Source: a virus
Direction: 5' to 3' (one strand)
IMG/VR virus record: IMGVR_UViG_3300028706_000019
Location: 1-37,478 of that record
Length of the DNA stretch: 37,478 nucleotides
The position numbers were made by a program, and so were the translations under genes. Positions 8,463-30,408 of the stretch are shown piece after piece (position 1 is the stretch's first letter; every line of letters starts with the position of its first letter). Below the pieces are notes generated by a model, which saw only the letters and a list, made by a program, of their open reading frames with translations, ran no database searches and was not told the origin of the DNA.

Positions 8463-8644
8463 ATTTCCCTTCCTTGGGGGCCATCCGTGGCAGCTAAATT
8501 AATTTTATATTACTTAATCCAATGGCACAAAAAGATGGCAGTGAGTGTTACTTTTTATCAGGTAGACCCGCCTAAGCCACTGATTCTTTGTAGGAATTAA
8601 TTACCGTGTCATTATAATATGTATCTACAAACGGAGGGTTTGAA
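8463..8644. promoter_or_regulatory. Divergent control region between minus gene 8202-8462 and plus gene 8645-8851
   Basis: A consensus -10 box TATAAT (8613-8618) lies at the right distance before the GGAGGG (8633-8638) of the plus-strand gene; its -35 is poor. On the minus strand TATAAA near 8505 with TTTGTG about 16 bases upstream may drive the 8202-8462 gene. The GCACAAAA motif (about 8524) overlaps the latter and matches the inverted repeat at 8073-8104. Confidence 0.4.
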
Positions 8645-8851
8645 ATGAAAGATTCGGAATATAGGTGTAGTTGTTGCGACCAAATAAAAAACTCTGAAGA
8701 GTCAATATCAGTGGCATGGTCGGGCAACGAAGTTATGAGAGATGCTGCTGGGTACACGACTGTCGAGGTATGTATTGGTTGTTGTGATAAAATACGCGAG
8801 GCAGATGTGGTTGGGGTTTTGGATTATTTTAAGTACCTTGTAAACAAGTAA
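8645..8851 (+). CDS. Small zinc-ribbon-like protein
   Basis: The 68-residue protein has CSCC near residue 8 and CIGCC near residue 43, a likely zinc-binding pair, and an amphipathic C-terminus VLDYFKYLVNK. It is the only plus-strand gene inside the leftward block. It has a strong GGAGGG and a TATAAT box of its own. Its stop codon abuts that of the minus-strand DUF1064 gene (8851/8852), so the two are convergent. The function is unknown; an independently expressed early regulator is possible. Confidence 0.65.
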   Translation: MKDSEYRCSCCDQIKNSEESISVAWSGNEVMRDAAGYTTVEVCIGCCDKIREADVVGVLDYFKYLVNK

Positions 8852-9193
8852 TCAGCCGGCCCCGCGGGTTTCAGATAATAACTCAAACCCGCAGCCTTTC
8901 TTTTTAACCCACCTTAAAAGCCCAGGTCCATAGTGTTTCCAAAGACGTTTTTTAAGGTTAGCGACTGGCGTAGGATGGCCCTTGACGTCGATCCAGACCT
9001 TTTCATCACCCTCTTGTATCAAAAAATCTGCCCTCAAAAGTATCTTTGATCTAGTCATATAAACCTTAGGCTGTAATTCAAGTATCATGCCTGTGGGTTT
9101 CATCATTATGTAGTATTCGGCTTCTGCTTTGGAGTCGAAAATAATATTATCAACCATTGTTTTCTTGGCTGAATACTTATTTTTTTTGAACAC
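8852..9193 (-). CDS. DUF1064-family nuclease-like protein
   Basis: The protein has the DUF1064 pattern: NKYSAKKT, then IIFDSKAEAEYY, LQPKVYM, LRADFLI and VWIDVKGHPT. The spaced acidic residues and DxK (D...DVKG) fit a PD-(D/E)xK or resolvase-like nuclease fold. Such proteins are common in the recombination and replication clusters of phages. I place the start at the GTG at 9193, which overlaps the upstream stop (TAGTG) and has an AGAGG before it. An ATG at 9211 would add six residues. Confidence 0.75.
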   Translation of the reverse strand: MFKKNKYSAKKTMVDNIIFDSKAEAEYYIMMKPTGMILELQPKVYMTRSKILLRADFLIQEGDEKVWIDVKGHPTPVANLKKRLWKHYGPGLLRWVKKKGCGFELLSETRGAG

Positions 9194-11058: not shown

Positions 11059-11270
11059 ATGTCCTCTACTTCTGAATAAACCAGCTTTTTGTGGTCGAGT
11101 TGCTTTTTAATGTCTACAAGCACGCTCAGTTGGCGCCATGTCACAAACCCGTTTTCTTGGTAAAAATCTAGAAATTTAAATATCCATTCCTTGTCTCTGT
11201 TCGAGAGCCACTCTTTGTCATCCTGTAGCCCGTCCAGCAGTTTCTTGAAAATAACTTTTTGGTCATTCAT
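11055..11270 (-). CDS. Small early protein, unknown
   Basis: The 71-residue protein has LLDGLQDDKEWLSNRDKEWI and a C-terminal segment FVTWRQLSVLVDIKKQL, a pattern found in short phage proteins near replication genes. It is coupled on both sides by ATGA overlaps. No motif assigns a function. Confidence 0.55.
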   Translation of the reverse strand: MNDQKVIFKKLLDGLQDDKEWLSNRDKEWIFKFLDFYQENGFVTWRQLSVLVDIKKQLDHKKLVYSEVEDI

Positions 11271-11763
11271 TAAACATCTCCTTCACTTTTTGCCTTGCTC
11301 TTTGGTCGGCTTCTTTTGCAAATGCTACTCTGCTACGTCTTTCTATTTCTGCCTTCTCTCTGGCCATGCGCATTCCTATCAACTGGCTCTTGGTCATTGG
11401 CTTGGGCCCTTGCCGCTTCTTGGCCTTCTTTTTGTCTTTCTTTTTAAGCCTGTTCACTAGTTTCAAAGCCAATTTCTTGTACTCCTTAACCTCGAACCAG
11501 GATGGGGCGGTTTTAAGGCTGTGACCGATTCTAAGGTCTGTTTCGCACGTGTTGCTTTTACCTAGATTACAATCACGGCATAACACTTGTAGGTTCTTAA
11601 TGTCCAACTCCAGCTCCGGGTAGCTGCTCCGTGGTTTTATGTGGTCTACATGTATCTGGACGGAGACGGCTGTAACACCACACGACATACACTTATGGCC
11701 GTAGAACTTTAAAACCTGCCACCTTACTTTTCTCCAAGCTTCTGTTTTGTAGAAGTCTGCCAT
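11263..11763 (-). CDS. HNH endonuclease (first leftward gene)
   Basis: The 166-residue protein has the classical HNH signature: FYKTEAWRKVRWQVL, CMSCG, IHVDHIKPRS, LDIKNLQVLCRDCN and GKSN. The two CxxC pairs bind structural zinc. A long Lys/Arg-rich helical tail (about residues 95-166) likely grips DNA. HNH proteins in this position may take part in packaging, host DNA degradation or gene mobility. The ATG follows GAGG by six to seven bases. It heads the leftward operon, facing the structured non-coding region. Confidence 0.85.
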   Translation of the reverse strand: MADFYKTEAWRKVRWQVLKFYGHKCMSCGVTAVSVQIHVDHIKPRSSYPELELDIKNLQVLCRDCNLGKSNTCETDLRIGHSLKTAPSWFEVKEYKKLALKLVNRLKKKDKKKAKKRQGPKPMTKSQLIGMRMAREKAEIERRSRVAFAKEADQRARQKVKEMFNE

Positions 11764-12116
11764 GCGTTACCTCACTTTTGGATATAGGAGCCCTCAATTC
11801 TGCATAGAACAACTAAAGAGCTTTGAAGCCTTCTTACTATTCCGAACTGGTAGGATCCATTTATCAAGTATGCAGATTTCTGGGCTGAGTTACTGGCGTA
11901 TAGGCCCCGGGATTTTAACCCTAATCCTTGTTCTTCAATTCGTTACTTCAGAAAACGTTTTACTAAGGTTAGACCGTTACACTGTTTAGCTGCCCCTGCT
12001 CCAAAAAGCCAGGTAGGGGTTCTACCGATACAGAAACTATGAATCACTTAGGTTATTAAATTTACATGAATATGCTCTTCATGGGAGTTTTCGAGTCCTC
12101 CAAACGTATTTTTTTT

Positions 12117-12146
12117 GGTTTACGGCAAAAAAGATAAACCCGTAAA
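12117..12146 (+). promoter_or_regulatory. Two mutually exclusive hairpins
   Basis: TTTACGG (12119-12125) pairs with CCGTAAA (12140-12146), or GGTTTA (12117-12122) pairs with TAAACC (12135-12140). The arms overlap, so only one can form at a time. The right arm also shares bases with the next large stem. Such an arrangement is typical of RNA switches but can also arise by chance in AT-rich DNA. Confidence 0.35.
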
Positions 12147-12151
12147 TTTGA

Positions 12152-12188
12152 TTGATTGAGTATTTTAGAATACATTGGACTCAATCAA
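12152..12188 (+). repeat. Perfect 10-bp inverted repeat with nested hairpin
   Basis: TTGATTGAGT and ACTCAATCAA flank 17 bases that begin with a smaller stem (GTATT-TTAG-AATAC uses the last two bases of the left arm). Weaker pairing continues outward to 12144 and 12196. It could be an operator pair or an RNA stem. Confidence 0.5.
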
Positions 12189-12198
12189 GTCAATTTAT

Positions 12199-12233
12199 GC
12201 CTTGGGTGTTTCTTTCAATTATTCACTCAAGGC
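12199..12233 (+). repeat. 10-bp stem-loop with one G-U pair
   Basis: GCCTTGGGTG (12199-12208) and CACTCAAGGC (12224-12233) pair at all ten positions on the plus strand when one G-U is allowed. On the minus strand the same position is C-A. This asymmetry supports a plus-strand transcript. Confidence 0.5.
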
Positions 12234-12470
12234 TTATCCATTAAATTATAGAAGTTGTTAAAAGTAAACCGAGACTACACTGTGCATTATGCTATTAAGT
12301 GATTAGTTTGGTTTAATATTATCAACTATGTTATTCCCTGGACATTAAAAGGCATACCTACCTCAAGGTAGAGGTGGGAGCCTTATTATTTATACTAATG
12401 ATGTAGATATTACCTTATTAGAAAGTAATGGGTTTACTTTTTGGGGTTAAGTTTTTATGTTGGTTCCTAA

Positions 12471-12568
12471 TTGTGGACGACATTCTTCAAGATTTTAAAA
12501 AGTAATATTTTTAAATACTACTCTGGCCCCCGGTAGATCATTGATGCGTCCACAACGTATAGGGGGCC
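12471..12568 (+). promoter_or_regulatory. Pseudoknot-shaped leader before the first rightward gene
   Basis: TTGTGGACG (12471-12479) is the perfect complement of CGTCCACAA (12547-12555). GGCCCCC (12525-12531), inside that loop, is the perfect complement of GGGGGCC (12562-12568), outside it. The two stems interleave as in an H-type pseudoknot. The second stem is followed by TTTCTT and alone would resemble a weak terminator, so the pair could work as attenuator and anti-terminator. The AAGGGAG ribosome binding site of the next gene follows within nine bases. Confidence 0.5.
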
Positions 12569-12589
12569 TTTCTTGTAAGGGAGATATTT

Positions 12590-12814
12590 ATGATTGAGGA
12601 CTACTTGTTATTCTTATTTTGGTTGGAGTTTAAAGGTGCGCTCGATGGCTTTGAACAAGGGGTCCAGACTCGCAATTTTCGGGAATATCCAGGGACGGCA
12701 GACAGCCAGGACTTTGTCTTATGCGCTTTCCGGTGGGACAAAGCGCCCGGTGGGCCCTCTTACTGGCGGCCATTGAACACAGAGTGGCGGAGGCGGCATC
12801 ATGACGATAAGTAA
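12590..12814 (+). CDS. First rightward early protein, unknown
   Basis: The 74-residue protein starts with a hydrophobic segment (MIEDYLLFLFWLEFKGAL) and ends in an Arg/His-rich tail. The middle AFRWDKAPGGPSYWRPLN recalls short phage proteins of unknown role. It follows AAGGGAG by six bases and lies right behind the pseudoknot-like leader, so it is probably expressed first in this operon. Confidence 0.65.
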   Translation: MIEDYLLFLFWLEFKGALDGFEQGVQTRNFREYPGTADSQDFVLCAFRWDKAPGGPSYWRPLNTEWRRRHHDDK

Positions 12815-12995
12815 TTCAGATTTTTCAGGGCTTAGCGACCACGAGACTAAGCAGGCGGCCATCCGTGAACAGATGGAAAGAGACGCAATGGAAGAGCTAA
12901 TAGAAGATCTTAAGAAACAAAACACTGAGCTAGAGAATAAATTAGCGTGGTTTAAAAAGGAGTTGGAAAGTGTCAATTCATCAAAAACTAAGTGA
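12801..12995 (+). CDS. Small coiled-coil protein
   Basis: The 64-residue acidic protein is nearly all predicted helix with heptads (EELIEDLKKQNTELENKLAW). It overlaps its neighbours on both sides, with GGCGGAGG upstream of its ATG. Position before the ERF recombinase gene suggests a partner role, but this is inference. Confidence 0.6.
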   Translation: MTISNSDFSGLSDHETKQAAIREQMERDAMEELIEDLKKQNTELENKLAWFKKELESVNSSKTK

Positions 12996-13557
12996 AATAC
13001 AAGCAAAGCTTAAGGCACCAAAGGCCGAGTATAATTCTTTTGGTAAATACAAATACAGAAGTGCTGAAAATGTTATGGCCGCTATAAAACCATTTCTAAA
13101 TGGGCTTAGCCTTGTTTTAACAGATGAGATGGTAATGATTGGAGAAAGGTATTATCTGAAAGCCACAGCCGTCCTGACGGACAATGAAAGCACTGTTGTT
13201 AATTGTGCGTATGCAAGAGAGCCTTTGTTGCAAAAAGGAATGAATGACTCACAGATAACAGGTAGTGCCTCTAGTTATGCTAGAAAATATGCTCTTGGCG
13301 GTTTGTTTCTTTTAGATGACAACCCAGACCCTGACTCTCAAGATAACACCCAAGGCAAGGAACCAGCCCAACAAAACCACCAGCCCAACCACGGCAATAA
13401 ATATATAGTCCCCTTCGGCAAAACAAAGGGCAAACACTTTGACACATTAGCGCCTGACGAGATGGGCAGTATGCTTACTTGGTGTAAGAGTAAAAATGAA
13501 GAAGGCAAATTTAACAAGCTTATCGCAGAGATAACTGAATACATGGGGCAGAAATGA
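12970..13557 (+). CDS. erf: ERF-family single-strand annealing protein
   Basis: The 195-residue protein matches the ERF superfamily of phage recombinases, which bind single-stranded DNA as rings and anneal complementary strands. Visible parts are the N-terminal KLSEIQAKLKAPKAEYNSFG, YRSAENVMAAIKPFL, then TGSASSYARKYALGGLFLLDD, the best-conserved ERF block. After a Gln/Asn/Pro linker there is a second small module (VPFGKTKGKHFDTLAPDEM...LTWCKS) like the C-terminal domain of exonuclease X. The start is GTG after AGGAG. It could circularise the genome or repair phage DNA. No partner exonuclease is seen. Confidence 0.9.
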   Translation: MSIHQKLSEIQAKLKAPKAEYNSFGKYKYRSAENVMAAIKPFLNGLSLVLTDEMVMIGERYYLKATAVLTDNESTVVNCAYAREPLLQKGMNDSQITGSASSYARKYALGGLFLLDDNPDPDSQDNTQGKEPAQQNHQPNHGNKYIVPFGKTKGKHFDTLAPDEMGSMLTWCKSKNEEGKFNKLIAEITEYMGQK

Positions 13558-13742
13558 TAACTGAATTTTCAATAGCAATAAAACACAACATGCTTTCTAT
13601 GGAACTTAAATCCGATGAGGAAACAATGCATAGAATAATGGGTGAGCTTATTAATAAGATAGCCTGTGAAAATATGAAGCCAGAGGGACCGGCGACTGAG
13701 CACGAGTTTGCGGGGTCAGATTTAAACTATGAGCTACAATAG
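13554..13742 (+). CDS. Small acidic protein, unknown
   Basis: The 62-residue protein begins MITEFSIAIKHNMLSMELKS, overlapping the ERF stop (ATGATAA). No motif is recognised. It is kept because the start/stop coupling fits the operon pattern. Confidence 0.5.
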   Translation: MITEFSIAIKHNMLSMELKSDEETMHRIMGELINKIACENMKPEGPATEHEFAGSDLNYELQ

Positions 13743-13776
13743 AAGAGTTATGCTTGCGTCGAGACACAGGAGAGTC

Positions 13777-14043
13777 ATGATTGATAGTGACGAAAACTAC
13801 GATAACCGTGCGAGAATGCATTCGCTTTGGCGCTCTCAAGGGCTGAAGCCTAAAGAGGAAGAGGCTTTGGCGGAAACCTGGGATGAAAATGCTAGGACTA
13901 TGGGCTCCCCTACTGGTAACATTGACCATGTATTAAAAGACATGGAGGTTACCAATGGTGGAAATGCTACTGGAAAGAATGGCAGACCTAGAAAACCAAA
14001 TAGCGGAAAAGAAAAATCGAATAAGAACGATGAGGCACGATAG
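13777..14043 (+). CDS. Small hydrophilic protein, unknown
   Basis: I place the start at the ATG at 13777, which has AGGAGAG just upstream. An ATG at 13729 would add 16 basic residues but lacks a good ribosome binding site. The protein has a central segment LKPKEEEALAETWDENARTMG and a Gly/Asn/Lys-rich tail. The last 89 bases are read in a second frame by the next gene. Confidence 0.5.
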   Translation: MIDSDENYDNRARMHSLWRSQGLKPKEEEALAETWDENARTMGSPTGNIDHVLKDMEVTNGGNATGKNGRPRKPNSGKEKSNKNDEAR

Positions 14044-14149
14044 CATGACTTATAAGATAGAAGTTAAAAGAATTAAATCTTTAGAAAAAATGCATGGGTT
14101 GAATCAGTTTTTATATAGGCAGATAACACATAGTGAGACTTTGCATTGA
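13955..14149 (+). CDS. Small coiled-coil protein overlapping its neighbour by 89 bases
   Basis: The 64-residue basic protein begins MVEMLLERMADLENQIAEKK, a clear leucine-heptad coiled coil, then a basic helical region. GGAGG lies six bases before the ATG. Because both the heptads and the ribosome binding site look real, this frame is likely coding even within the overlap. Confidence 0.55.
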   Translation: MVEMLLERMADLENQIAEKKNRIRTMRHDSMTYKIEVKRIKSLEKMHGLNQFLYRQITHSETLH

Positions 14150-14562
14150 AAGCAATTGTAAAACAAAGAAACATGGCGGATTGCGCAGTGGCCTGCCTAG
14201 CGATGGCTACCGGCGAGTCTTACGAGGCGATCTTTAGCAGCTTAAACACAGAGGCGAGGGAAAGCCTTGGTTTAGGCGAGGGGCTTTACTGGCGCGATGA
14301 TTTAGAATTGCTTGACCTGTTAAAGTTCGAATACGAAAGCTATTATCCTGAACCAGGCGACGGTTGGTCTTCCACATGCAAAAGGGCGATATTGCAAGTT
14401 CCGTCTAAAAATTTTGAAAACAAAAAACATGCGCTTTTTTGGGACGGGGAATCCATTCTGGACCCATCGAACATGCTTACTTACGACACAGAAGAAGGGC
14501 TTGGCGCGTGCGACTTTGTCCTTAAAATTTGGATGCCGAATGAGAGACACACTAGAACATAA
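14146..14562 (+). CDS. C39-like (papain-fold) cysteine protease homologue
   Basis: The 138-residue protein shows the layout of small C39-like peptidases: Q7 (oxyanion-type Gln) in KQRNMADCAVACLAM with C13 as likely nucleophile, H95 in KKHALFWDG and D106 in SILDPSNM. The family's usual DCG is DCA here. Similar stand-alone domains occur in phages, where substrates are unknown. The start is a TTG that overlaps the upstream stop (TTGA). Confidence 0.6.
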   Translation: MKAIVKQRNMADCAVACLAMATGESYEAIFSSLNTEARESLGLGEGLYWRDDLELLDLLKFEYESYYPEPGDGWSSTCKRAILQVPSKNFENKKHALFWDGESILDPSNMLTYDTEEGLGACDFVLKIWMPNERHTRT

Positions 14563-14710
14563 AATAGTTACTGATCACTTAGCCTTTATGGATATAAGAG
14601 AGTTTGACGAAATTGAAACTAAGAAAGTTATAGGCAACTATATAGTCACTATTAGAGTTGAAAAATTGGAGGGAACCAATGCAGGAAGTGAAGAAGAAGG
14701 ATCTAGTTGA
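14540..14710 (+). CDS. Small acidic protein, unknown
   Basis: The 56-residue frame starting MRDTLEHKIVTDHLAFMDIR overlaps the end of the protease-like gene and the start of the lipoprotein gene. It has a plausible mixed helix/strand pattern (KKVIGNYIVTIRVEKLEG) but a weak ribosome binding site and no known family. Confidence 0.45.
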   Translation: MRDTLEHKIVTDHLAFMDIREFDEIETKKVIGNYIVTIRVEKLEGTNAGSEEEGSS

Positions 14711-15524
14711 ATTGGCCATGTATATGGTGTTTATGTTTGGGGTTTTGTATTTAACAGGTTGTAGCAATGTCGATACTAAAAAAGAAGCTGAAAGTGATAC
14801 ACCTCATGAACAGCCAGTTCCAGAGGACAACGGTACGCCTCCAGAAAAGAAGTACCCGTTTATCTATGATCTTAGAGCCACTCCTGATGTTAACATGCTG
14901 TGGCTTGCTGATGTTGCTTTTGTGGACCCTTCTTTGGATGTCGCAGTCATTGAGTCAATCAAAAAGTATACAGAAAAAGTTAGGGCCTATGTATCATGCG
15001 GTACTGCAGAGGAAAGCAGAGACAACTTCTCAGAGCTTGAACCCTACATTAAAAAAGAAAAAGACAGCAGGGGCAAGGAACATAAGGTAAAGCTTGAGGG
15101 TTATGACGAGTACATATTGGACCCTCAGCACAAAGATGAAATTGTCCCCATACTAGAAAAGAAATTTATTCTGGCCAAGTCCATAGGCCTCACCGGCGTC
15201 ATTTGCGACAACGCAGAATTTTTAACGGGAGTAATGTTAAATGAACTCAAAGAAAGAGCTAATCTTTTGGCGCTTAGTTTCGGCTTTGTTAATGCTTTGT
15301 ACATTGTGGACGCTGGTGAAGCATCCCCAGATTTTCACGTCGTAGAACAGTGCAACCAATACGGTGAATGCAACCTTGTAGATAAATTAGTTGAAAAAAA
15401 TGTGCCTATTTTCCATTTAGAATATAAGAGCAAATATTGTTACCCCACCCCGGGGCATGAAACTGTTTTATATGGTGGTGACAGAGAACTTTACGCTGAC
15501 AGATTTGAGAGGGTGTGTGAGTAA
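14679..15524 (+). CDS. GH114-like (endo-alpha-1,4-polygalactosaminidase) lipoprotein
   Basis: The 281-residue product starts at the ATG at 14679 (GGAGGG six bases before; an upstream TTG is less likely). It has a hydrophobic signal with lipobox LTGC (Cys28), a Pro/Glu-rich linker, then a TIM-barrel domain with the GH114 pattern: YDLRATPDVNMLW, ADVAFVDPSLD, KVRAYVSCGTAEESRDNF, and AKSIGLTGVICDNAE. The acidic DNAE is a candidate catalytic site. The family cleaves galactosamine-rich exopolysaccharide. As a phage product anchored in the host envelope it may remodel surface polysaccharide or exclude other phages. This function is inference. Confidence 0.75.
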   Translation: MQEVKKKDLVELAMYMVFMFGVLYLTGCSNVDTKKEAESDTPHEQPVPEDNGTPPEKKYPFIYDLRATPDVNMLWLADVAFVDPSLDVAVIESIKKYTEKVRAYVSCGTAEESRDNFSELEPYIKKEKDSRGKEHKVKLEGYDEYILDPQHKDEIVPILEKKFILAKSIGLTGVICDNAEFLTGVMLNELKERANLLALSFGFVNALYIVDAGEASPDFHVVEQCNQYGECNLVDKLVEKNVPIFHLEYKSKYCYPTPGHETVLYGGDRELYADRFERVCE

Positions 15525-15720
15525 CGCGATTAAACGGATCATTAAAACTTTGGCAGTGCTGTGGCTTTTCGCCTCGGTCCCATTGGTCTTTGTTTGGGCC
15601 GATGGTGAGCAGTGGGCTGGGTGGGTGTCCCTTGGCCCCATGGTCGCTGCTTGGATATTATGGACGATTTTCGGTGGCGCGATTTTTGATAAAATTGGAA
15701 AGGCCATGAGTGATAGTTAA
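15517..15720 (+). CDS. Small membrane protein with two transmembrane segments
   Basis: The 67-residue protein has hydrophobic stretches TLAVLWLFASVPLVFVWA and WVSLGPMVAAWILWTIFGG. The start is the GTG at 15517 (GAGAGG upstream), just before the lipoprotein stop. It might be a holin-like or exclusion protein, but it lies far from the lysis genes and the sequence does not decide. Confidence 0.6.
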   Translation: MSNAIKRIIKTLAVLWLFASVPLVFVWADGEQWAGWVSLGPMVAAWILWTIFGGAIFDKIGKAMSDS

Positions 15721-16000
15721 AAACCCCGCCCTGCTAAAAGCCTACCGAGCTAAACCGTGTGAAATATGCGGCTCAACTACTGCTGTGTCTGGGCACCACA
15801 TAATTACTAAAGGTTCTAACGGTGGTCATTTAGATATTGAAGAAAACTTAATAGCATTATGCTTCCATCATCATAGGGCCATACACGACATTGATACGGT
15901 GGTTTTTTGTGAGTTGTTTCCTGTTGTGAATGGTATATTTATTAATAAAGGTTTTTTCCAGTGTGAGTTAACTGGGAAATGGAAGAAGGCAAAAGAATGA
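15710..16000 (+). CDS. HNH-like zinc nuclease
   Basis: The 96-residue protein has CEICGS, GHHIITKGSNGG, ENLIALCFHHHRAIHD: a compact HNH/treble-clef pattern like phage DUF968 and recombination nucleases. The start is a GTG overlapping the previous gene (GTGATAG). A role in phage DNA recombination with ERF is plausible. Confidence 0.7.
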   Translation: MIVKNPALLKAYRAKPCEICGSTTAVSGHHIITKGSNGGHLDIEENLIALCFHHHRAIHDIDTVVFCELFPVVNGIFINKGFFQCELTGKWKKAKE

Positions 16001-16233
16001 CCCCGTATGCAGAAGACCTGAAATATTTAAAAGAGTTAATAGAGTCGCAGAAAGGAGACACCTTCCACGTTGATAAGAAAATTCTTGGAAGCTTTGTCCA
16101 ACACGCCATAAGAAATTCCACCCACCAAGACAGCCTTGTTCGCCAGATAGAGGGCATGGGCCAGACAATTGAAGATTATAGGAAACTTATTGTAACCGCT
16201 TTGACAAGGAGTGAAAAATGCGAGCACTTTTAA
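15997..16233 (+). CDS. Small helical protein, unknown
   Basis: I place the start at MTPYAEDLKYLKEL, whose ATG overlaps the upstream stop (ATGA); an ATG at 15979 would add six residues. The 78-residue protein is helical and charged with no recognised domain. It overlaps the start of the PAP2 gene. Confidence 0.5.
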   Translation: MTPYAEDLKYLKELIESQKGDTFHVDKKILGSFVQHAIRNSTHQDSLVRQIEGMGQTIEDYRKLIVTALTRSEKCEHF

Positions 16234-16760
16234 TACTAATTACATTTATTTGCATAGCTTTTAATGCATTTAGTGCAGATAAAAGCTTCGATGTCTTGAG
16301 ACCCGTTGATGAGCCGATATCTAAAGCTCTGGCCTGGGATGATCATGAGCTGCCAGCTAAACTATCGGACTATGGATTATATGCATCTATTGCTATGCCA
16401 TATGTTTATGTGGTTACTGAGAAAGAAGATAGGCTTAAAAGGTTTGGATCTATAGCGGCGACTCAATTTACGGCCATGCTTCTTTCAGACGTCGTAAAAA
16501 TGAGATCCAAGAGAGTCAGGCCTAACGGGCAGGACGACCGGAGCTTCTTTAGTGGCCATTCGTCGATGTCTTTTGCCAGTTCGGGGCTTGTGTGTTTAAT
16601 GGGGAACAAGTATCACTGCTATGGGTCGGTGGCGCTAGCAGGGGTTACGGCATATCTCAGGGTGGCAGCAAAGAAGCACTACGCTAGTGATATTTTAGTG
16701 GGGGCTGGGTTGGGTTATCTCAACGGGAGATACTACCCGAAGCTATTTATGAGGTTTTAA
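16218..16760 (+). CDS. PAP2-family phosphatase with signal peptide
   Basis: All three PAP2 motifs are present: K94-x6-R101-P102, SGH at 112-114 (in SFFSGHSSMSFA) and R148-x5-H154-x3-D158. The N-terminal 20 residues form a signal peptide (MRALLILITFICIAFNAFSA), so the active site should face the periplasm. PAP2 enzymes remove phosphate from lipids such as undecaprenyl pyrophosphate, phosphatidic acid or lipid A. Only a few further hydrophobic segments are seen. The active-site set is intact, so it is probably an enzyme. It lies two to three genes downstream of the GH114-like lipoprotein. Confidence 0.85.
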   Translation: MRALLILITFICIAFNAFSADKSFDVLRPVDEPISKALAWDDHELPAKLSDYGLYASIAMPYVYVVTEKEDRLKRFGSIAATQFTAMLLSDVVKMRSKRVRPNGQDDRSFFSGHSSMSFASSGLVCLMGNKYHCYGSVALAGVTAYLRVAAKKHYASDILVGAGLGYLNGRYYPKLFMRF

Positions 16761-16900
16761 TGAAAAAATTAAGGGTATATTTGCCTAACACTGAAAGCAA
16801 GCAATGGGTCTACACTAAGGTTGACGACAGTTGGCACGAAATGCTGAAACACCATGGAAAATATGGACGGTTGAACTTCCCAAGGTCGGATTATGAATAA
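16760..16900 (+). CDS. 46-residue protein, unknown
   Basis: A short frame (MKKLRVYLPNTESKQWVYTK at the N-terminus) begins at an ATG overlapping the PAP2 stop, with GAGG five bases upstream, and ends at the TAA at 16898-16900, inside the next gene's start. The tight coupling and regular codons argue that it is real. Confidence 0.5.
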   Translation: MKKLRVYLPNTESKQWVYTKVDDSWHEMLKHHGKYGRLNFPRSDYE

Positions 16901-17108
16901 CCTCGACCCTCAACTAGAAAGCTGGAAGGTTGAAAAGTCCCTCCAAGACCAAAACGAAGCTCTGAAGTTGGAAAACCTAGGGCTTAAATCTTACATTGTT
17001 ACTTGTAATGATATGATAACTAACGATATTGGCGGGAAGGTTTTTAAGTTTGTGGCTTTTGTTTGTTGTGCGAGTTTGGTGCTTAATATTTATTTAATGG
17101 GGAAGTAG
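16893..17108 (+). CDS. Small coiled-coil protein with C-terminal membrane anchor
   Basis: The 71-residue protein has a helical N-terminal part (LESWKVEKSLQDQNEALKLE) and a C-terminal hydrophobic segment (FKFVAFVCCASLVLNIYLM), the form of a tail-anchored membrane protein. It overlaps its neighbours on both sides. The function is unknown. Confidence 0.55.
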   Translation: MNNLDPQLESWKVEKSLQDQNEALKLENLGLKSYIVTCNDMITNDIGGKVFKFVAFVCCASLVLNIYLMGK

Positions 17109-17653
17109 TGAAGTGGTTTACGAGTGATTTACATTTCGGTCACAAGAACATTTTGGAGTATTGCGATAGGCCATGTGAAGACTTGTACCAAATGCAGGAA
17201 ATGCTCATATCAAATTGGAACTCAGTCGTTAAGCCAATCGATGATGTGTTCCATTTGGGAGACTTTTCATTCCTAAGACCCGCTGAAACCAGGGCCATAT
17301 CAGCAAGCCTGAATGGCAACAAGCATGCTATATGGGGCAATCACGATTCAAGAAACAACCTTGTGTCGTGCGGTTTTACCTCTGTCTACCACTCGGCAAA
17401 ACTCAAGCTGGCCAAAGATGTTTATGTCCATTTAAATCACTTCCCTTATTATGGCGATCACGAAGGCCTAGAGGATCGCTATGTTGAGCTTAGACCTAAA
17501 AGAACCGACACCAATTGGCTTCTCCATGGTCACGTGCACGACTGCTGGCAGGTAAAAGCCGAAGAAAAAATGATTAATGTTGGTTGTGATGTGTGGGGCT
17601 TTAAGCCTGTTTCTGCAGATAAAATTTTGGACATAATAAGAAAGTCGCGTTAG
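17108..17653 (+). CDS. Calcineurin-like metallophosphoesterase
   Basis: The 181-residue protein carries the full metal-binding set: SDLHFGH (6-12), FHLGDFS, WGNHDSR, LNHFPYY and LHGHVHDCW. Such phage enzymes hydrolyse phosphodiesters or phosphomonoesters with a two-metal centre; proposed substrates include RNA 2',3'-cyclic phosphates and nucleotides. The start is GTG. It is the last gene of the rightward operon and its stop overlaps that of the convergent lipoprotein gene by four bases, with no terminator hairpin between. Confidence 0.9.
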   Translation: MKWFTSDLHFGHKNILEYCDRPCEDLYQMQEMLISNWNSVVKPIDDVFHLGDFSFLRPAETRAISASLNGNKHAIWGNHDSRNNLVSCGFTSVYHSAKLKLAKDVYVHLNHFPYYGDHEGLEDRYVELRPKRTDTNWLLHGHVHDCWQVKAEEKMINVGCDVWGFKPVSADKILDIIRKSR

Positions 17654-17928
17654 CGGCACTCGTCCTGACCCCAACGTCTCAACTCTTTTCCTGTAGGAGT
17701 GATATCTAGTGCCCATTCGTCTGCAGAGAATCCTAGAATATCGTCGCAGAATCTTTTTTCGCATTTATAAAGCTCTTCTAGAGGTCCAGGGTTGTTCAAG
17801 TCATATGCCTGGCAGTAGCATTGATCAAACTTGAAGGACCACACCCGCCTTGTTACTTCTCTAAATTCTGGAACCTGGCACCCGGCGAGGCTAAAGGCGA
17901 CCAATGTGCTTGCGATAACCTTCTTCAT
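17650..17928 (-). CDS. Cys-rich lipoprotein of the lysis module
   Basis: The 92-residue product has signal and lipobox SLAGC (Cys17) and then five to six more cysteines (QCYCQAY, KCEKRFCDD, DECR) with a conserved-looking FSADEWAL. Small lipoproteins of this sort follow endolysin genes in several marine phages. It might act as an outer-membrane spanin partner, but it lacks the Pro-rich make-up of classical Rz1, so this remains open. GGAGG precedes the ATG. It overlaps the upstream gene by 38 bases. Confidence 0.65.
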   Translation of the reverse strand: MKKVIASTLVAFSLAGCQVPEFREVTRRVWSFKFDQCYCQAYDLNNPGPLEELYKCEKRFCDDILGFSADEWALDITPTGKELRRWGQDECR

Positions 17929-18181
17929 TGCCTTCCTCCTTAGCCTCCATGACTCTTTTTAATAGTATTTTACCACGCGTTTTGTCATAAACAAGTAGGC
18001 CCTTTCTTATGGCCGTGTTAATGATTGGTTCTGCTATCATTTTAAAGGCTTTTTCTAATATAAAAGAAATAACCCAGGCCCTGAAGCCAGTGGTCTTGCC
18101 TAAAATCTTAAGCAAGGCAGTTTGCACCACCTTGTTTTTAAGAAGTTTTATAAATGATTCTTTTAATGCTGCCCAATTCAC
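17891..18181 (-). CDS. Membrane-associated helical protein, holin candidate
   Basis: The 96-residue basic protein has amphipathic/hydrophobic helices (VVQTALLKILG, FRAWVISFILEKAFKMIAEPI) and a charged tail. Its place among the endolysin genes makes a holin or membrane-disrupting role possible. No clean transmembrane topology is visible. The start is GTG overlapping the previous stop (GTGA). Confidence 0.45.
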   Translation of the reverse strand: MNWAALKESFIKLLKNKVVQTALLKILGKTTGFRAWVISFILEKAFKMIAEPIINTAIRKGLLVYDKTRGKILLKRVMEAKEEGNEEGYRKHIGRL

Positions 18182-18414
18182 AGTGCTTTTAACGCGCTTT
18201 TAACCATTGCTAGGACCGCATCGTCTAGCTCTCCTGGAATCAAAGCCGCTAATTTATCCAGGAAGTAGTCGGGTTCAAGGTCAACATAAAGGCCGGTATC
18301 AAGTCCTTTTCCATCGTAAGCAAATACTAGCCGCAGTTTGCCATCTTTCATGTCGACTTCGAAATCAACTTCTTTTGATACTGCGAATTCCACCATCTTC
18401 TTTTCTTCTGTCAT
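18178..18414 (-). CDS. Small acidic phage protein, unknown
   Basis: The 78-residue product has the pattern VDFEVDMKDGKLRLVFAYDG and LIPGELDDAVLAMVKSAL that I associate with small conserved phage proteins near lysis genes. No biochemical role is known to me. It lies three bases after the endolysin stop. Confidence 0.6.
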   Translation of the reverse strand: MTEEKKMVEFAVSKEVDFEVDMKDGKLRLVFAYDGKGLDTGLYVDLEPDYFLDKLAALIPGELDDAVLAMVKSALKAL

Positions 18415-18417
18415 TTC

Positions 18418-18822
18418 CTATTCCTTGGTTAGATATTTTTCTTTCCACTTGTCCACATCAAATACAGGGCAAGCTTTTGAATGATTGAAATGATTATGAC
18501 CGTATACGTCATCTTGAGTCAAGTCGAAGATGTCTAAAAAGGTTTGCACAAGCTTTGCTAGAGCTTCCATTTGCTTCTGTGAGAACACTTTGAGCCCCAA
18601 CACGCAAATTCCTATGGACGAAAAGTTATGGCCCTTACAGTGAGCGCCAGGCTTTTTTATTGGGCGTAGTATTTTAATTTCACCTTGATAATCAATACCG
18701 AAATGGTAACCAATAGAATTCCATCCCCTATGATCCACATGGTCAGTTTCCATAAGCTTGAAATCGTAGAAATATTTATCACTAGCACTACAATGTAATA
18801 TAATTTTATCTATCGTTCTCAC
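18418..18822 (-). CDS. Endolysin: N-acetylmuramoyl-L-alanine amidase (Amidase_2, T7 lysozyme type)
   Basis: The enzyme cuts the bond between N-acetylmuramic acid and the stem peptide. Visible features are IILHCSASD with the first zinc His, GWNSIGYHFGIDYQGEI, RPIKKPGAHCKGHNFSSIGI, and VYGHNHFNHSKACPVFDV with the last zinc His and Cys. There is no signal peptide, so it needs a holin for release. The start is uncertain: a GTG at 18822 gives the usual N-terminus of this family; a TTG at 18843 is also open and overlaps the upstream gene. Confidence 0.9.
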   Translation of the reverse strand: MRTIDKIILHCSASDKYFYDFKLMETDHVDHRGWNSIGYHFGIDYQGEIKILRPIKKPGAHCKGHNFSSIGICVLGLKVFSQKQMEALAKLVQTFLDIFDLTQDDVYGHNHFNHSKACPVFDVDKWKEKYLTKE

Positions 18823-18997
18823 GTTTATATAACTTCCATACAATTTGTCTAATTTCTCTTATATCATTTCGCATTTCAGATTGGTCTATTTGTATTTGGA
18901 CTGCTGTTTCTTTGGTTTGGAAATTAGCATGGGCGTATGCAATAAGGGCGGCGGCTGAGGTGGCAATAAAAATGACGTATTGTATTTCTCTTTTCAT
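18806..18997 (-). CDS. Single-pass membrane protein of the lysis module (spanin or holin candidate)
   Basis: The 63-residue protein has one N-terminal transmembrane segment (VIFIATSAAALIAYAHA) and then a hydrophilic helix (QIQIDQSEMRNDIREIRQIV). That is the form of a short inner-membrane spanin or of a type III holin. It is coupled to the upstream gene by ATGA and overlaps the endolysin gene. Confidence 0.55.
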   Translation of the reverse strand: MKREIQYVIFIATSAAALIAYAHANFQTKETAVQIQIDQSEMRNDIREIRQIVWKLYKRENDR

Positions 18998-19512
18998 AAT
19001 CCCTTGGAGGCCTTAAGGACTAAATAATCTTTTATGGCCGTGTCTCTCTTGATATCTAATTCAACTAAAACTTCCTTATAATAATCTCTTATTTTATCCG
19101 CAGTGTCTAAAGCATCGCCCTGCGTGAATGTTCCAATTGATTTAAGGGCAGTTAAGTTTTGGTTAATATATTTCTCTGGGGCAGTCATCTTGAGGTGATA
19201 AGACGCTGTAAATGCTAACAGGGATTCAAGTCTGGTTGTTCCAAAAACAGCTGCAGCATCTGAAATTATAGTTGTGTCCATAGTTGAGTGTTGTGCTTTA
19301 ACCGCCTTTTTGTCTAGGTCTTCTACGACGGTCACGACATCAGCCTCGCCGGAATCATCAACATCTATCTTAACTTCACCCCTCGGTGAATCGGGTCCGT
19401 TAACTAGAATGTAATCTTGGTATGGATGATAGGCCGCATTTGTAGCACCTTTAATTTCTCTGCTAATAACAAGGCCATCTTCGTCTTTGGTTTCTTTTAT
19501 AATCCACTTCAT
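18994..19512 (-). CDS. Protein encoded behind the tail fibre, unknown
   Basis: The 172-residue protein has a beta-rich first half (YHPYQDYILVNGPDSPRG) and a helical second half (KYINQNLTALKSIGTF, ADKIRDYYKEVLVEL). Its ATG directly follows the fibre stop. By position it could be a fibre chaperone or a virion component, but no motif proves either. Confidence 0.55.
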   Translation of the reverse strand: MKWIIKETKDEDGLVISREIKGATNAAYHPYQDYILVNGPDSPRGEVKIDVDDSGEADVVTVVEDLDKKAVKAQHSTMDTTIISDAAAVFGTTRLESLLAFTASYHLKMTAPEKYINQNLTALKSIGTFTQGDALDTADKIRDYYKEVLVELDIKRDTAIKDYLVLKASKGL

Positions 19513-22500
19513 TTATAACTCCGGAACCCATCTACTTGAGGTTATTTTGACATCTATATCACCAGTACTGATTTGAACATTCTTTAGATCTTGCGGAAAG
19601 CTCCATGTTTGCGAGATAACAGATCTCCCTGTTATATCAATTGAACTTGTCGAATATGTGCCTGCGTTCCCGTCACTGTGAATCGGATAATATAAATCGT
19701 CGTTATTAACAACTCCCGAGAATGTGATTGTTTTTGTTTCAAGCTTGTAGCCAGAGGCATTTCTTTCGAACCACTTATTAGGTTCTAATGGTAATGGCTC
19801 GTAAGCAAGCGAACCACTTCTGAAAGAACTTGTAGAGCCTTGAGTGAATTTAATAGTGTGAAACCCGGGGAAGCTTACATCTGTCACGTTAGCGTCAACG
19901 ACTGTGGCCCTAGCTTTTTTAACATCAAAGCTTGTATCAGATACAATGGTAGTGATGATAACTTCTTCCGTGTTTGTACCGTCGTCCAGTATGGCCCTTT
20001 GACCCTCAACAAGCCCCCTTGTATCAGCAATGGTGAATGTGTCAGACGCTGAAAATGAGCAGGCAAGCTTAAACCTTTTTTGCCACAATCTCGCGTTAGC
20101 TTCAATTGCAGTTGGCACCCCGCCGGCCTTAACACACACTCTTTGCGAATAAGCCGTATAAGATCTGGTATCCAAGGTCGCTGTCACTGCTGTTTCGTGG
20201 CTGGTGAAACAAGCATCTTCTATACATGCTGACCTCATGAAGCCCATAAATTTAAGTGACGATGCTGTCGTTCTGAGGCTTACAGTGCTGGCAAAATGCC
20301 AAGGATGCTTACCAAAATTAGAAGTGGACTCGGTGAAGTTTTCGAAAGCCGCTGAAACATCTATGCCAATATCCACCGGCATAACATCGCCTTCGCGATA
20401 ACCTGATTCCTCAAGATATGAAGGAACCCTGTCAGCTGAATGCCTGTTAGGGGTAATTCTTTTTGTGTATAAAGGGTAACCCACACCCTGGCCGTTGTTG
20501 GCAACATCTGCGTTTATGTTTTTGTTTTCTTCTTCTTGGACATCATCAATCGTTATAATACTGGTGTGCCCGAAAGTGTTGGCCGTAGCTTCATTATTTT
20601 TGAATCGGGCCTTATAAGTTCCCGCTGGAAGCCCAGTAAAAAAGAATATGTCGTAATTAGAATACCCAGGATTTTGAAAGGCTATTATATTTTGAACAAG
20701 ATCAGTGCCTTCAACGATGGCGGCTGTGGAAAGGTACAAAGAAAGGTATTCAGACCTGTTTGTAAACCTGGACATTTTAAGCCCTATACCCCCACCGTCA
20801 CCGGCCAAAGTAAAATCAACTTCTACATAAGCCCCTGTGGTTGTACTTGTTCTTGCATAGTTGTTGAATGCGTCACCATCCAGGCCACCAGCCCAGGTTC
20901 CACTTTCTGTAATACTATTTATATTGTCACCAGAACCCGGGACATAAAGCGTTCCCGTGTTATGCGCATGTTCTGAAGCCCATAAACTTATTGGTGCTAT
21001 GTCGATGGTTTTAATTATAGATTCTGTTAGTGTCAGTGACTCCCAGTTGGGCTTAGTAAAATATTGTCTGGCCCCTAAGAATACAAACCCTTGGTTGTTA
21101 TTTGTTAGCTCAAAAGAAACCCTGTTTTCAGCTTGGACCCATATAGACCTAGTACCTCTAGGGAAAGATATGAAGCAAGACATTATTTTGCCTCTGACAC
21201 TGGAAGTCGTGGGGGCCGTGCTTGCAGTTGCCTCAAGGTTCAGCGGGTAAACAGGCTGTTGGTTGTCCACGGTCACGCTTATAGCGCCTGCTTCGAATGA
21301 CTGAACAAAGTGCAGTGCAATTCCAGAACAATCATGGTCTGGGTAAATGGCTATTGCACCTTGGGTTGTTGAGTTAATATAAGCAGTCTTTGGTCCGAAA
21401 CCTAACATCTCAGTCACAGCGTCAGCTTCTATGGCCGCGCTAGTTGAGGTATATGGGTACTTAATCCGAGGGTCATTTGCTTCCATTAAAAACTTATCAG
21501 CCTCGAAAACTCTTTGGCACAAATGTTGTTTGGTAGTTGTGCCAACATACGAAAGGCTCGCACTCAGGTCAGCATCACCATAGCCAAGATCACCGTGAAT
21601 CGAATTGGCCTGGTTAGCACCAGATGAAAACAAGAGCTCAAAGGAATCAACCTCTGGACCATGCGCCATCACCATCCATCTTTGTGTTGTTTCGTCATAC
21701 TTAGCTTTGTATCCGCCATTGTTAATTGCATGGGCCGTATTTAACGCCTCTTCTATTGCTGCTCCCAAAGGAAGTACGTCTGCAGAGTATAGACCATTTG
21801 TGATAGTGGCAGCGAAAGTGGACTGTGCCCCGCCGTTTTCCCCTACCTTGAAATCGATTTTATTATTAGAAGCACTAACAACAATTGTACCAGCACCGAT
21901 GTGATTTATATTAAGCTCCATTTGCGAATCACCAGGAGTCACGCTGTCTAGTGATCCCATTGGAGTGAAGTCTGCGGTTGGTTGGGTCTGCCAAATAATT
22001 CCATCTAGTGAATGGGATTGTATAGAACTGTCTGTTTTAGATGTGTAAGAAAAGATATGCTTAGCCCCATAAGGCGTAGTCATTTCACAAAGGCCTGATG
22101 CTGGAAAGTTCCAGTTGTTTTTAACGTCCAGACTTGTTACTGCAGATGAAAATGAAATGGCCTCTTCTGGTTTAGTTTGAGTCATTGCAGGTGATAGACC
22201 ATCAACAGCGGTAAGCGTTCCACCAGTGTTCATTTTGATTGCACCAGTATGGCCCCAAGAAAAACTTTTAGCAGGAGGGGAGAAACTTAGATCTGACTCA
22301 CTGAATGATGCTGTTGTACCCCTCGCAGAACCCAGCCCTGCGGATATTTTAACAGCGTGGTCTATAGTGGGTGAGTCGGCCCTGTAACCAAATTCCACGC
22401 CTTCAAGCTTGAATACCTTCGAGGCAGAGTCAGTGTTTTTTATAGTTATGATATGCCTGTGTCCATCCAGCCCGAAATAATGCTCCTTATAGCCAGCAAT

Positions 22501-28783: not shown

Positions 28784-29169
28784 TCAACGCCTTCAAGATC
28801 TTCCTGGGTGTAGATATTGGTAATCTTCCCATTCTTTAAGGGCATGGCAAGGCCTGCAAGGGCATCTCTCATTAAAGCGGTTGGCTCAATAGAGAATAAT
28901 TCACTTACACAATCATCGGTAAGAGAGTCACCTTCAAATCCAAACTCGTAATCTTTCCCGTCCTCATCTTTAAGACCCTCACAAGCTTTTAGCGTGTGCT
29001 TTATAAGATAAGCCTGGGACTCAATTAGGTTAACAACTGGATCTTTCCCTACTTGGTTTGTAAGTGAAGCAAGCTCTGCTCTTTGAATGTAAGATAATGG
29101 TTTGGCGTGGAATACTAATTCACCAATTTTAAATTTAACAAGCTTTTTTAAACTCGATACTACTATCAT
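28753..29169 (-). CDS. Tail assembly chaperone (G-type)
   Basis: The 138-residue protein (MIVVSSLKKLVKFKIGEL at the N-terminus) sits between tail tube and tape measure, the place of lambda G-like chaperones, which coat the tape measure during tail assembly. I place the start at 29169, seven bases after AAAGG, not at the upstream ATG (29202), which lies inside a hairpin. Near its 3' end a run of six As (28772-28767) is the likely frameshift site into the extension frame. Confidence 0.8.
   Translation of the reverse strand: MIVVSSLKKLVKFKIGELVFHAKPLSYIQRAELASLTNQVGKDPVVNLIESQAYLIKHTLKACEGLKDEDGKDYEFGFEGDSLTDDCVSELFSIEPTALMRDALAGLAMPLKNGKITNIYTQEDLEGVEIVREKSSVK
28756..28783 (-). promoter_or_regulatory. 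Ribosomal -1 frameshift window of the tail chaperone genes
   Basis: The -1 frame opens after the TGA at 28786-28784 and the zero frame closes at the TAA at 28755-28753, so the shift must occur between. The window contains GAAAAAAGC, read in zero frame as GAA AAA AGC. The best -1 heptamer A AAA AAG is present in sequence but not in the correct phase, so slippage on AAA in the P site alone is the simplest model. Confidence 0.65.
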
Positions 29170-29176
29170 AATGTTT

Positions 29177-29229
29177 CCTTTGAACGAATGTCCTAATATC
29201 ATACGACACTAGGACACTTCATTCAAAGG
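29177..29229 (-). promoter_or_regulatory. Hairpin burying the chaperone ribosome binding site
   Basis: On the minus strand CCTTTGAA (29229-29222) pairs with TTCAAAGG (29184-29177), and inside it TGTCCTA pairs with TAGGACA, giving 15 base pairs around an internal loop. The AAAGG at the end is the ribosome binding site of the chaperone gene. The hairpin starts six bases after the tail tube stop. No T-run follows. It should limit chaperone translation relative to the tube protein. Confidence 0.65.
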
Positions 29230-29235
29230 ATATGA

Positions 29236-30408
29236 TTAACAAAAACCTACAAAGATTTCTGTTAGATCTCCGGTTGTCCCAGTGTTAGCTTGGAACTCTG
29301 CAGGGCGGGTTAAAACTCCGTCTTTATCAGCTTTTGTAAGTGATGTGAAAATACACTGTGGAAGGTAAAATCCCACTACTGACCCAAGATCGAACTCACC
29401 AGTTGTTGTTGATTCGTTGCGAAAGATACAAACTAAGCTGAAGCTCGTATTGTCGTTAAAATCATTCCACAGATCTAGTGAATTATCATCCATATAAGGT
29501 GCTAAACTTCCATTTACAAGCCTTTCAGCAATCCTGGAGCTTAGTCTACCAGTACACGAAGTGACACTCGTTAGAAATGAAATAGTGTTTTCAACACTCA
29601 AAGAGAGCTCGTCCATTTCTAATGCCACACCATCTTTTGTCAGGGTAACACATAACGCCACTGGGGGGATCTCGTCATCAAATGCGGGGGTTTGACCTGT
29701 AGCAGAAGACCCTTCATTTACTTCATTATAGTCAGTACCTTCTTCAGCAAATGTTATTGTAGGTATTTGCCCAGTTGTAAGGTTTTCGAAACTTCCACTT
29801 GCTGGCCTTAAGCCAATGGCGCTTTCGTGGATCTCATCACCCCAGTAAACATGCTTTGTATAAGTCGGCTCGTCACCGGCCGCATAATAAGTTGTGGATT
29901 TAGCAATCTCCACAGCATCACTTGGGGCACCTGATCTAGCAGGCGTATAAGTAAATGTGTCATCTGTTTTTGATTCAACAAAGTGAGCGGTATGGTCGCC
30001 CGCTTCTAATATTACAACAAAGTCACCAACTACTAGCCCGTGAGCTACGGCGTTGATTAAAGATGTTGTGTGGGTTGTCCCGGTAGTAATCCTTGCTACT
30101 AATTGATTCTTACCACCAAGTAGCGCTTGCCATAAAACATCTGTTTCAGGCGCTTGACCTTCAACACCAGAGCCTTTCCATTCTACAGGAGTGCTGCCAC
30201 TTACTGATTTAGTGGAAACTCTTGGTTGAACCTTACCTTTGCCTGAAGCGATAATTAATCTTTCTAGTAATTCTTTTGCAGGGGCAACTTCAATGCCTTC
30301 TAGCACTTGAATAAATTCAGCTCCTGCACTGATTGGATCTTCTGTTCCTTCGACGGCTTCTTCTACGATGCCTACCTTTGTTTCATTCTTGATTACACCT
30401 ATGGCCAT
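29236..30408 (-). CDS. Major tail tube protein
   Basis: The 390-residue beta-rich protein lies where the tube gene is expected (after the terminator-type protein, before the chaperones). It has an N-terminal MAIGVIKNETKVGIVEEA, a central region with Ser/Thr/Gly-rich strands (including an inserted domain around 100-160) and a C-terminal GTTGDLTEIFVGFC. Tube proteins stack as hexamer rings. The second of two ATGs (30408) is better spaced from AGGAG. Confidence 0.75.
   Translation of the reverse strand: MAIGVIKNETKVGIVEEAVEGTEDPISAGAEFIQVLEGIEVAPAKELLERLIIASGKGKVQPRVSTKSVSGSTPVEWKGSGVEGQAPETDVLWQALLGGKNQLVARITTGTTHTTSLINAVAHGLVVGDFVVILEAGDHTAHFVESKTDDTFTYTPARSGAPSDAVEIAKSTTYYAAGDEPTYTKHVYWGDEIHESAIGLRPASGSFENLTTGQIPTITFAEEGTDYNEVNEGSSATGQTPAFDDEIPPVALCVTLTKDGVALEMDELSLSVENTISFLTSVTSCTGRLSSRIAERLVNGSLAPYMDDNSLDLWNDFNDNTSFSLVCIFRNESTTTGEFDLGSVVGFYLPQCIFTSLTKADKDGVLTRPAEFQANTGTTGDLTEIFVGFC

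Follow-up and report, generated by a model that had tools for sequence, protein, structure and literature searches.

A gene-free element of about 490 nt (12100–12589) lies at the point where the operons of a small phage diverge and folds far beyond chance. We read it, with a probability of roughly 0.45, as a cis-acting structured 5' leader of the rightward early operon, which contains the Erf gene, and possibly as a free RNA. The genome is the 37,478-base IMG/VR virus record IMGVR_UViG_3300028706_000019 (the window, analysed at its full length) and is known from metagenomes only.

The gap between the divergent operons

Sister contigs cross both ends of the record uninterrupted, with an overlap of 121 bases, so that the record looks like a complete phage genome that is terminally redundant or circularly permuted. 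The genes that run from 11763 leftward, round the ends, to 17650 are mostly on the minus strand. Since minus-strand genes lie to the left of the gap and plus-strand genes to its right (Table 1), the gap is the main and single operon divergence point of the genome. One sister contig (3300000151_000016) is identical over positions 11417–17811 of the window and averages 97.5% over 11417–19548; divergence thus begins near 17.8 kb, which points to strains having recombined close to the operon border. The 74-aa gene that opens the rightward operon has its sole detectable phage relative in a microvirus record (36% over 61 aa).

The sequence-only reading had described 826 bp of hairpin-dense, non-coding DNA between the operons (11764–12589). 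The gap itself is real, extending from the ATG of the HNH gene at 11763 (minus) to the next convincing ATG at 12590 (plus), which follows a good Shine-Dalgarno sequence. The only ORF of at least 50 aa inside it (11762–11989, 75 aa) was rejected as a hidden gene, as it matched nothing in Pfam, PHROG or phages. The high density of hairpins holds for the right two thirds, with all of the excess in about 12100–12589; the left third (11764–12055) folds at the level of shuffled sequences in sliding 150-nt windows, in separate folds and in inverted-repeat counts. This left part is probably the promoter/leader of the leftward operon (HNH to terminase to tail). The best, weak sigma70-like site of the gap is on the minus strand (11938–11912, TTGAAG-15-TAAAAT) and ranks 38th genome-wide, which is not significant; compared with the whole genome, weak sites of this kind in the region do not stand out, and neither end showed a sigma70 consensus promoter.

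Folding of the element and choice of strand

The minimum free energy (MFE) of 12100–12589 was −139.3 on the plus strand versus −105.1 in shuffles (z about −5.5) and −117.4 on the minus strand versus −84.2 (z about −6.6). For the plus strand, z was −5.82 for 12056–12589 (0 of 100 shuffles as good) and −5.35 for 12100–12400; the excess persisted with DNA parameters (z −5.79), and in the latter two cases, too, none of 100 shuffles was equal. Pairing probabilities above 0.9 were found at 202 plus-strand positions of 12100–12589 versus 66 in shuffles, a number that none of 40 shuffles reached, and the predicted plus-strand fold is of low entropy and well defined. Perfect stems of at least 8 bp number 6 in 12056–12589 versus 1.6 in shuffles (p=0.01), and mismatch-tolerant inverted repeats scoring at least 8 number 13 versus 4.0 (0 of 150 shuffles). 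The claim of a large structured element is supported, at a size of about 490 nt rather than 826.

Stepping through the genome in 490 nt, the MFE difference of 12100–12589 ranks 1–2 among about 150 window-strands, with 29030–29519 (minus) a close third, and the gap is the most structured of 30 ORF-free gaps of at least 300 nt in related phage loci. We consider it very unlikely that the structure is fortuitous, a fold without function in an A+T-rich intergenic stretch: z also fell below −4 in 3 of the 29 other gaps (few shuffles) and the third-ranking region gives a nearly equal excess from a lone hairpin, but none of 100 shuffles of the element folds as well and its structure is spread across many helices, not one.

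Within that third-ranking region a very strong long hairpin, TCATATCCTTTGAA...TTCAAAGGAAACATTATGA, lies between two structural genes (29160–29230, minus; local z about −6.7 to −7.8) and is possibly a processing or termination element of the late operon. Among other phage contigs, L075 contains a 530-nt ORF-free stretch directly downstream of an Erf gene (8559–9088, MFE −165.9, z about −4, no Rfam match), which is another candidate large RNA. Two further long ORF-free phage regions, in L078 (8368–8875) and L084 (7164–7472), likewise show a strong excess of folding and match no Rfam family.

The helices of the predicted plus-strand fold are listed in Table 1. Helix P0 abuts P1, P7 begins at the base that directly follows P1, and the junctions P1–P2, P2–P3, P5–P6, P6–P1 and P1–P7 are free of spacers. 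As read from the sequence, the loop of P0 (GTTTACGG) has an alternative partner, CCGTAAA, at 12140–12146. Read on the minus strand, P5 resembles a terminator hairpin.

Table 1. Positions of genes, of the parts of the gap and of the predicted plus-strand helices, with the evidence for each.
Feature	Positions	Strand	Evidence
Leftward gene products: HNH, RusA-like resolvase, methyltransferases, terminase, capsid, tape measure, amidase		-	
HNH endonuclease, 166 aa, first leftward gene	11263–11763	-	phrog_144 E 2.8e-18; PF01844 E 2e-11
Unstructured left part of gap	11764–12055	.	z about 0, both strands
ORF-free element with strong folding, proposed as a structured leader/RNA	12100–12589	+	MFE excess, pairing probabilities
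Helix P0, 11 bp, A/U-rich	12107–12136	+	p=0.93
Five-arm junction domain, closed by P1 AACCC/GGGTT (12137–12141/12430–12434)	12137–12434	+	P1 p=0.72
Arm P2, long hairpin, interrupted 19-bp stem, 17-nt loop	12142–12198	+	core p=0.95; inverted repeat
Arm P3, 10-bp hairpin, one G-U, 15-nt loop	12199–12233 (stem 12199–12208/12224–12233)	+	p=1.00
Arm P4, long, with interruptions and G-U pairs	12237–12342	+	predicted fold
Arm P5, AAGGC/GCCTT plus CCTACCTC/GAGGTGGG, loop AAGGTA	12349–12384	+	p=0.96–1.00
Arm P6	12385–12429	+	predicted fold
P7 stem-loop, large loop with TTGTGGACG (12471–12479)	12435–12504	+	predicted fold
P8 stem-loop GGCCCCC/GGGGGCC, loop with CGTCCACAA (12547–12555)	12525–12568	+	p=0.90
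Shine-Dalgarno AAGGGAG and ATG of first rightward gene	12577–12592	+	sequence
Rightward genes: 74-aa gene, Erf, GH114-like, HNH, PAP2, phosphoesterase	12590–17653	+	
74-aa protein, function unassigned, first rightward gene	12590–12814	+	tblastn E 3e-4, microvirus protein
Erf-like ssDNA annealing protein	12970–13557	+	phrog_155 E 2.2e-41

The loops of P7 and P8 hold a perfect 9-bp complement (12471–12479/12547–12555) with a duplex energy of −13.1 kcal/mol, and 0.02 such GC-rich perfect pairs are expected per shuffle. Freeing the loop bases costs about 10 kcal/mol, so that a loop-loop contact is plausible and not compelled; from the sequence, the complement is possibly a kissing contact or pseudoknot. 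By itself, P7–P8 has a z of only −2.25. P8 is followed by TTTCTTG and then by the ribosome-binding site, and a T-rich stretch follows P8 on the plus strand only; the 30-nt loop of P8 is longer than expected of an intrinsic terminator. The 3' strand of P6 (12413–12425) can be read as pairing alternatively with 12568–12580 (−11.4 kcal/mol), which would cover part of the Shine-Dalgarno sequence.

Two stems with G-U pairs had been taken to work on the plus strand only. Both exist (12199–12208/12224–12233 and 12272–12281/12298–12309) and each G-U is an A-C on the other strand, but over the whole element the plus strand is not singled out: in a strand-blind set of repeats, G.T and A.C mismatches stood at 4:2 (62% expected, p=0.58). 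The folding excess does not choose a strand either, the minus-strand z being at least as extreme as that of the plus strand. Helix junctions with zero spacer numbered 7 on the plus strand versus 3.6 in shuffles (reached by 2 of 40), and 2 versus 2.5, no excess, on the minus strand. This modest excess is the sole strand-specific hint from folding and is for the plus strand, which the gene context also favours.

An excess on both strands, and with DNA parameters, is what strand-neutral palindromes would give. It is possible, if on balance doubtful, that the region is a DNA element, a replication origin and/or operator at the divergence point, whose hairpins and repeated words are protein-binding sites or extruded or single-strand hairpins with no selection on RNA. 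The sequence-only reading had itself named a combined origin and control region as an alternative. The region is A+T-rich and sits at the strand switch. The words GGTTTAC (3 versus 0.06 expected) and AAAGTAA (4 versus 0.12) recur in both orientations, and 12260–12270 and 12431–12441 form an 11-bp perfect repeat. The scanned proteins of the genome included no recognisable replication initiator, helicase or polymerase, and an origin must be somewhere. However, the helices themselves account for part of the word repetition, and the abutting of plus-strand helices without spacers suits a folded RNA more than operators. Regular iterons are absent, a search for arrays having given only two 14-nt copies (12430–12456), and an iteron-type origin was rejected for lack of regularly spaced direct repeats.

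Known RNA classes and relatives

The Infernal search against Rfam that the sequence-only reading had proposed gave no family at gathering score, GOLLD and ROOL included; the matches with E≤10 were at chance level, to unrelated families, and neither GOLLD nor ROOL was among them, so that both were rejected. Group I and II introns were discarded as no intron covariance model matched, and a tmRNA or tRNA array as neither ARAGORN nor Rfam gave a match (relaxed ARAGORN settings yielded only noise); ARAGORN found no tRNA in the whole genome. For HEARO or omega RNA there was no Rfam match. As in IscB/IsrB systems, the structured region adjoins an HNH nuclease gene, but here the product is a 166-aa HNH protein with no other domain found, not an IscB/IsrB with RuvC and HNH, and the gene is divergently transcribed with 300 unstructured nt between.

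Self-assembly of the RNA into a cage is a mark of ROOL. Both ROOL and GOLLD, the latter often longer than 800 nt, are frequently close to tRNA islands, an association that is not strictly defining. Like ROOL, the element is phage-encoded, several hundred nt long and, as predicted, many-armed with loop-loop contacts (PMC12286853); unlike ROOL, it has no Rfam match and no nearby tRNA island. As a putative phage-encoded, large structured RNA with predicted loop-loop contacts it resembles GOLLD, and it differs in its structured part of about 490 nt, with no Rfam match and no tRNAs. A stand-alone ornate RNA in the manner of these two, set free from the leader or transcribed from a promoter of its own and perhaps self-assembling via the P7 and P8 loops, is in our view improbable. 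The length of the element, its multi-arm junction, loop-loop complement and phage setting would suit such an RNA, and GOLLD and ROOL assemble through kissing loops (PMC12286853), but it matches no Rfam family, the genome is without tRNA and the element leads straight into a ribosome-binding site.

The homology search for related intergenic regions, likewise proposed, recovered the region in two contigs, both identical in sequence, and no diverged homologue. As these are the only other copies, no covariation can be read, and there is no basis for claiming a new class of RNA. DNA similarity gave no homologues in phage and plasmid records. Diverged copies were found neither via the neighbouring genes (Erf, the 74-aa gene, terminase and a 212-aa gene) nor by patterns of the loop, P5 and P3 in IMG/VR and of P5 in genomes; the pattern matches examined beyond the self copies were chance-like and mostly within genes. 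Two covariance models (R1 and R2), run over 1.17 Mb plus 0.17 Mb of phage loci, returned the identical copy only, as did R1 when run against 48 whole phage records; models built from a single sequence are weak, and this null is not proof of absence. A 30-nt similarity near the terminase of sister contigs falls in the phage's own structural-gene region and was taken as chance. With no diverged copy found, we call the element an orphan. In the course of this work a complete tmRNA gene with tag peptide was met in another viral contig that carries an Erf gene (L035, 13140–13467).

The proposed leader and its possible roles

We favour the structured 5' leader because it explains the position, the direction of the neighbouring gene, the terminator-like P8, the overlap with the ribosome-binding site and the quality of the fold with the fewest assumptions. 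For it speak the low-entropy predicted fold, the GC-rich loop-loop complement, an end at the Shine-Dalgarno sequence and ATG of a plus-strand gene and the T-rich stretch after P8; against it stand the equal or stronger folding of the minus strand, the lack of a consensus promoter, the small excess of P7–P8 and the absence of diverged homologues.

In the proposed leader, 12100–12589 would be transcribed rightward as a structured RNA of roughly 490 nt and would fold into the five-arm junction followed by the 3' module P7–P8. The pairing of the P7 and P8 loops and the alternative pairing of the P6 strand at the ribosome-binding site could control how much transcription of the operon continues beyond P8, or how much of it is translated, and the leader may be cleaved away and remain as a free RNA. 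Leaders of phage operons can carry attenuator or antiterminator RNA, as in HK022 put. The element resembles such leaders as a putative structured RNA that opens an early operon, with a terminator-like stem and a Shine-Dalgarno sequence close by; it is much longer, and no sequence relation is known.

Tentatively, and with more doubt than confidence, the element could represent a new, very narrowly distributed class of large structured phage RNA, about 490 nt in length and made up of a five-arm junction and a 3' module with loop-loop pairing, that controls or is released from an early operon. To our knowledge there are few large structured phage RNAs, and their roles are mostly unknown. If the region is instead an origin or operator, it shows how a control region is laid out in a phage without recognisable replication proteins. 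If the RNA reading is true, the roles of such RNAs could be studied with unusual ease in this one, an orphan that sits exactly where a small genome is controlled, directly ahead of its first early gene.
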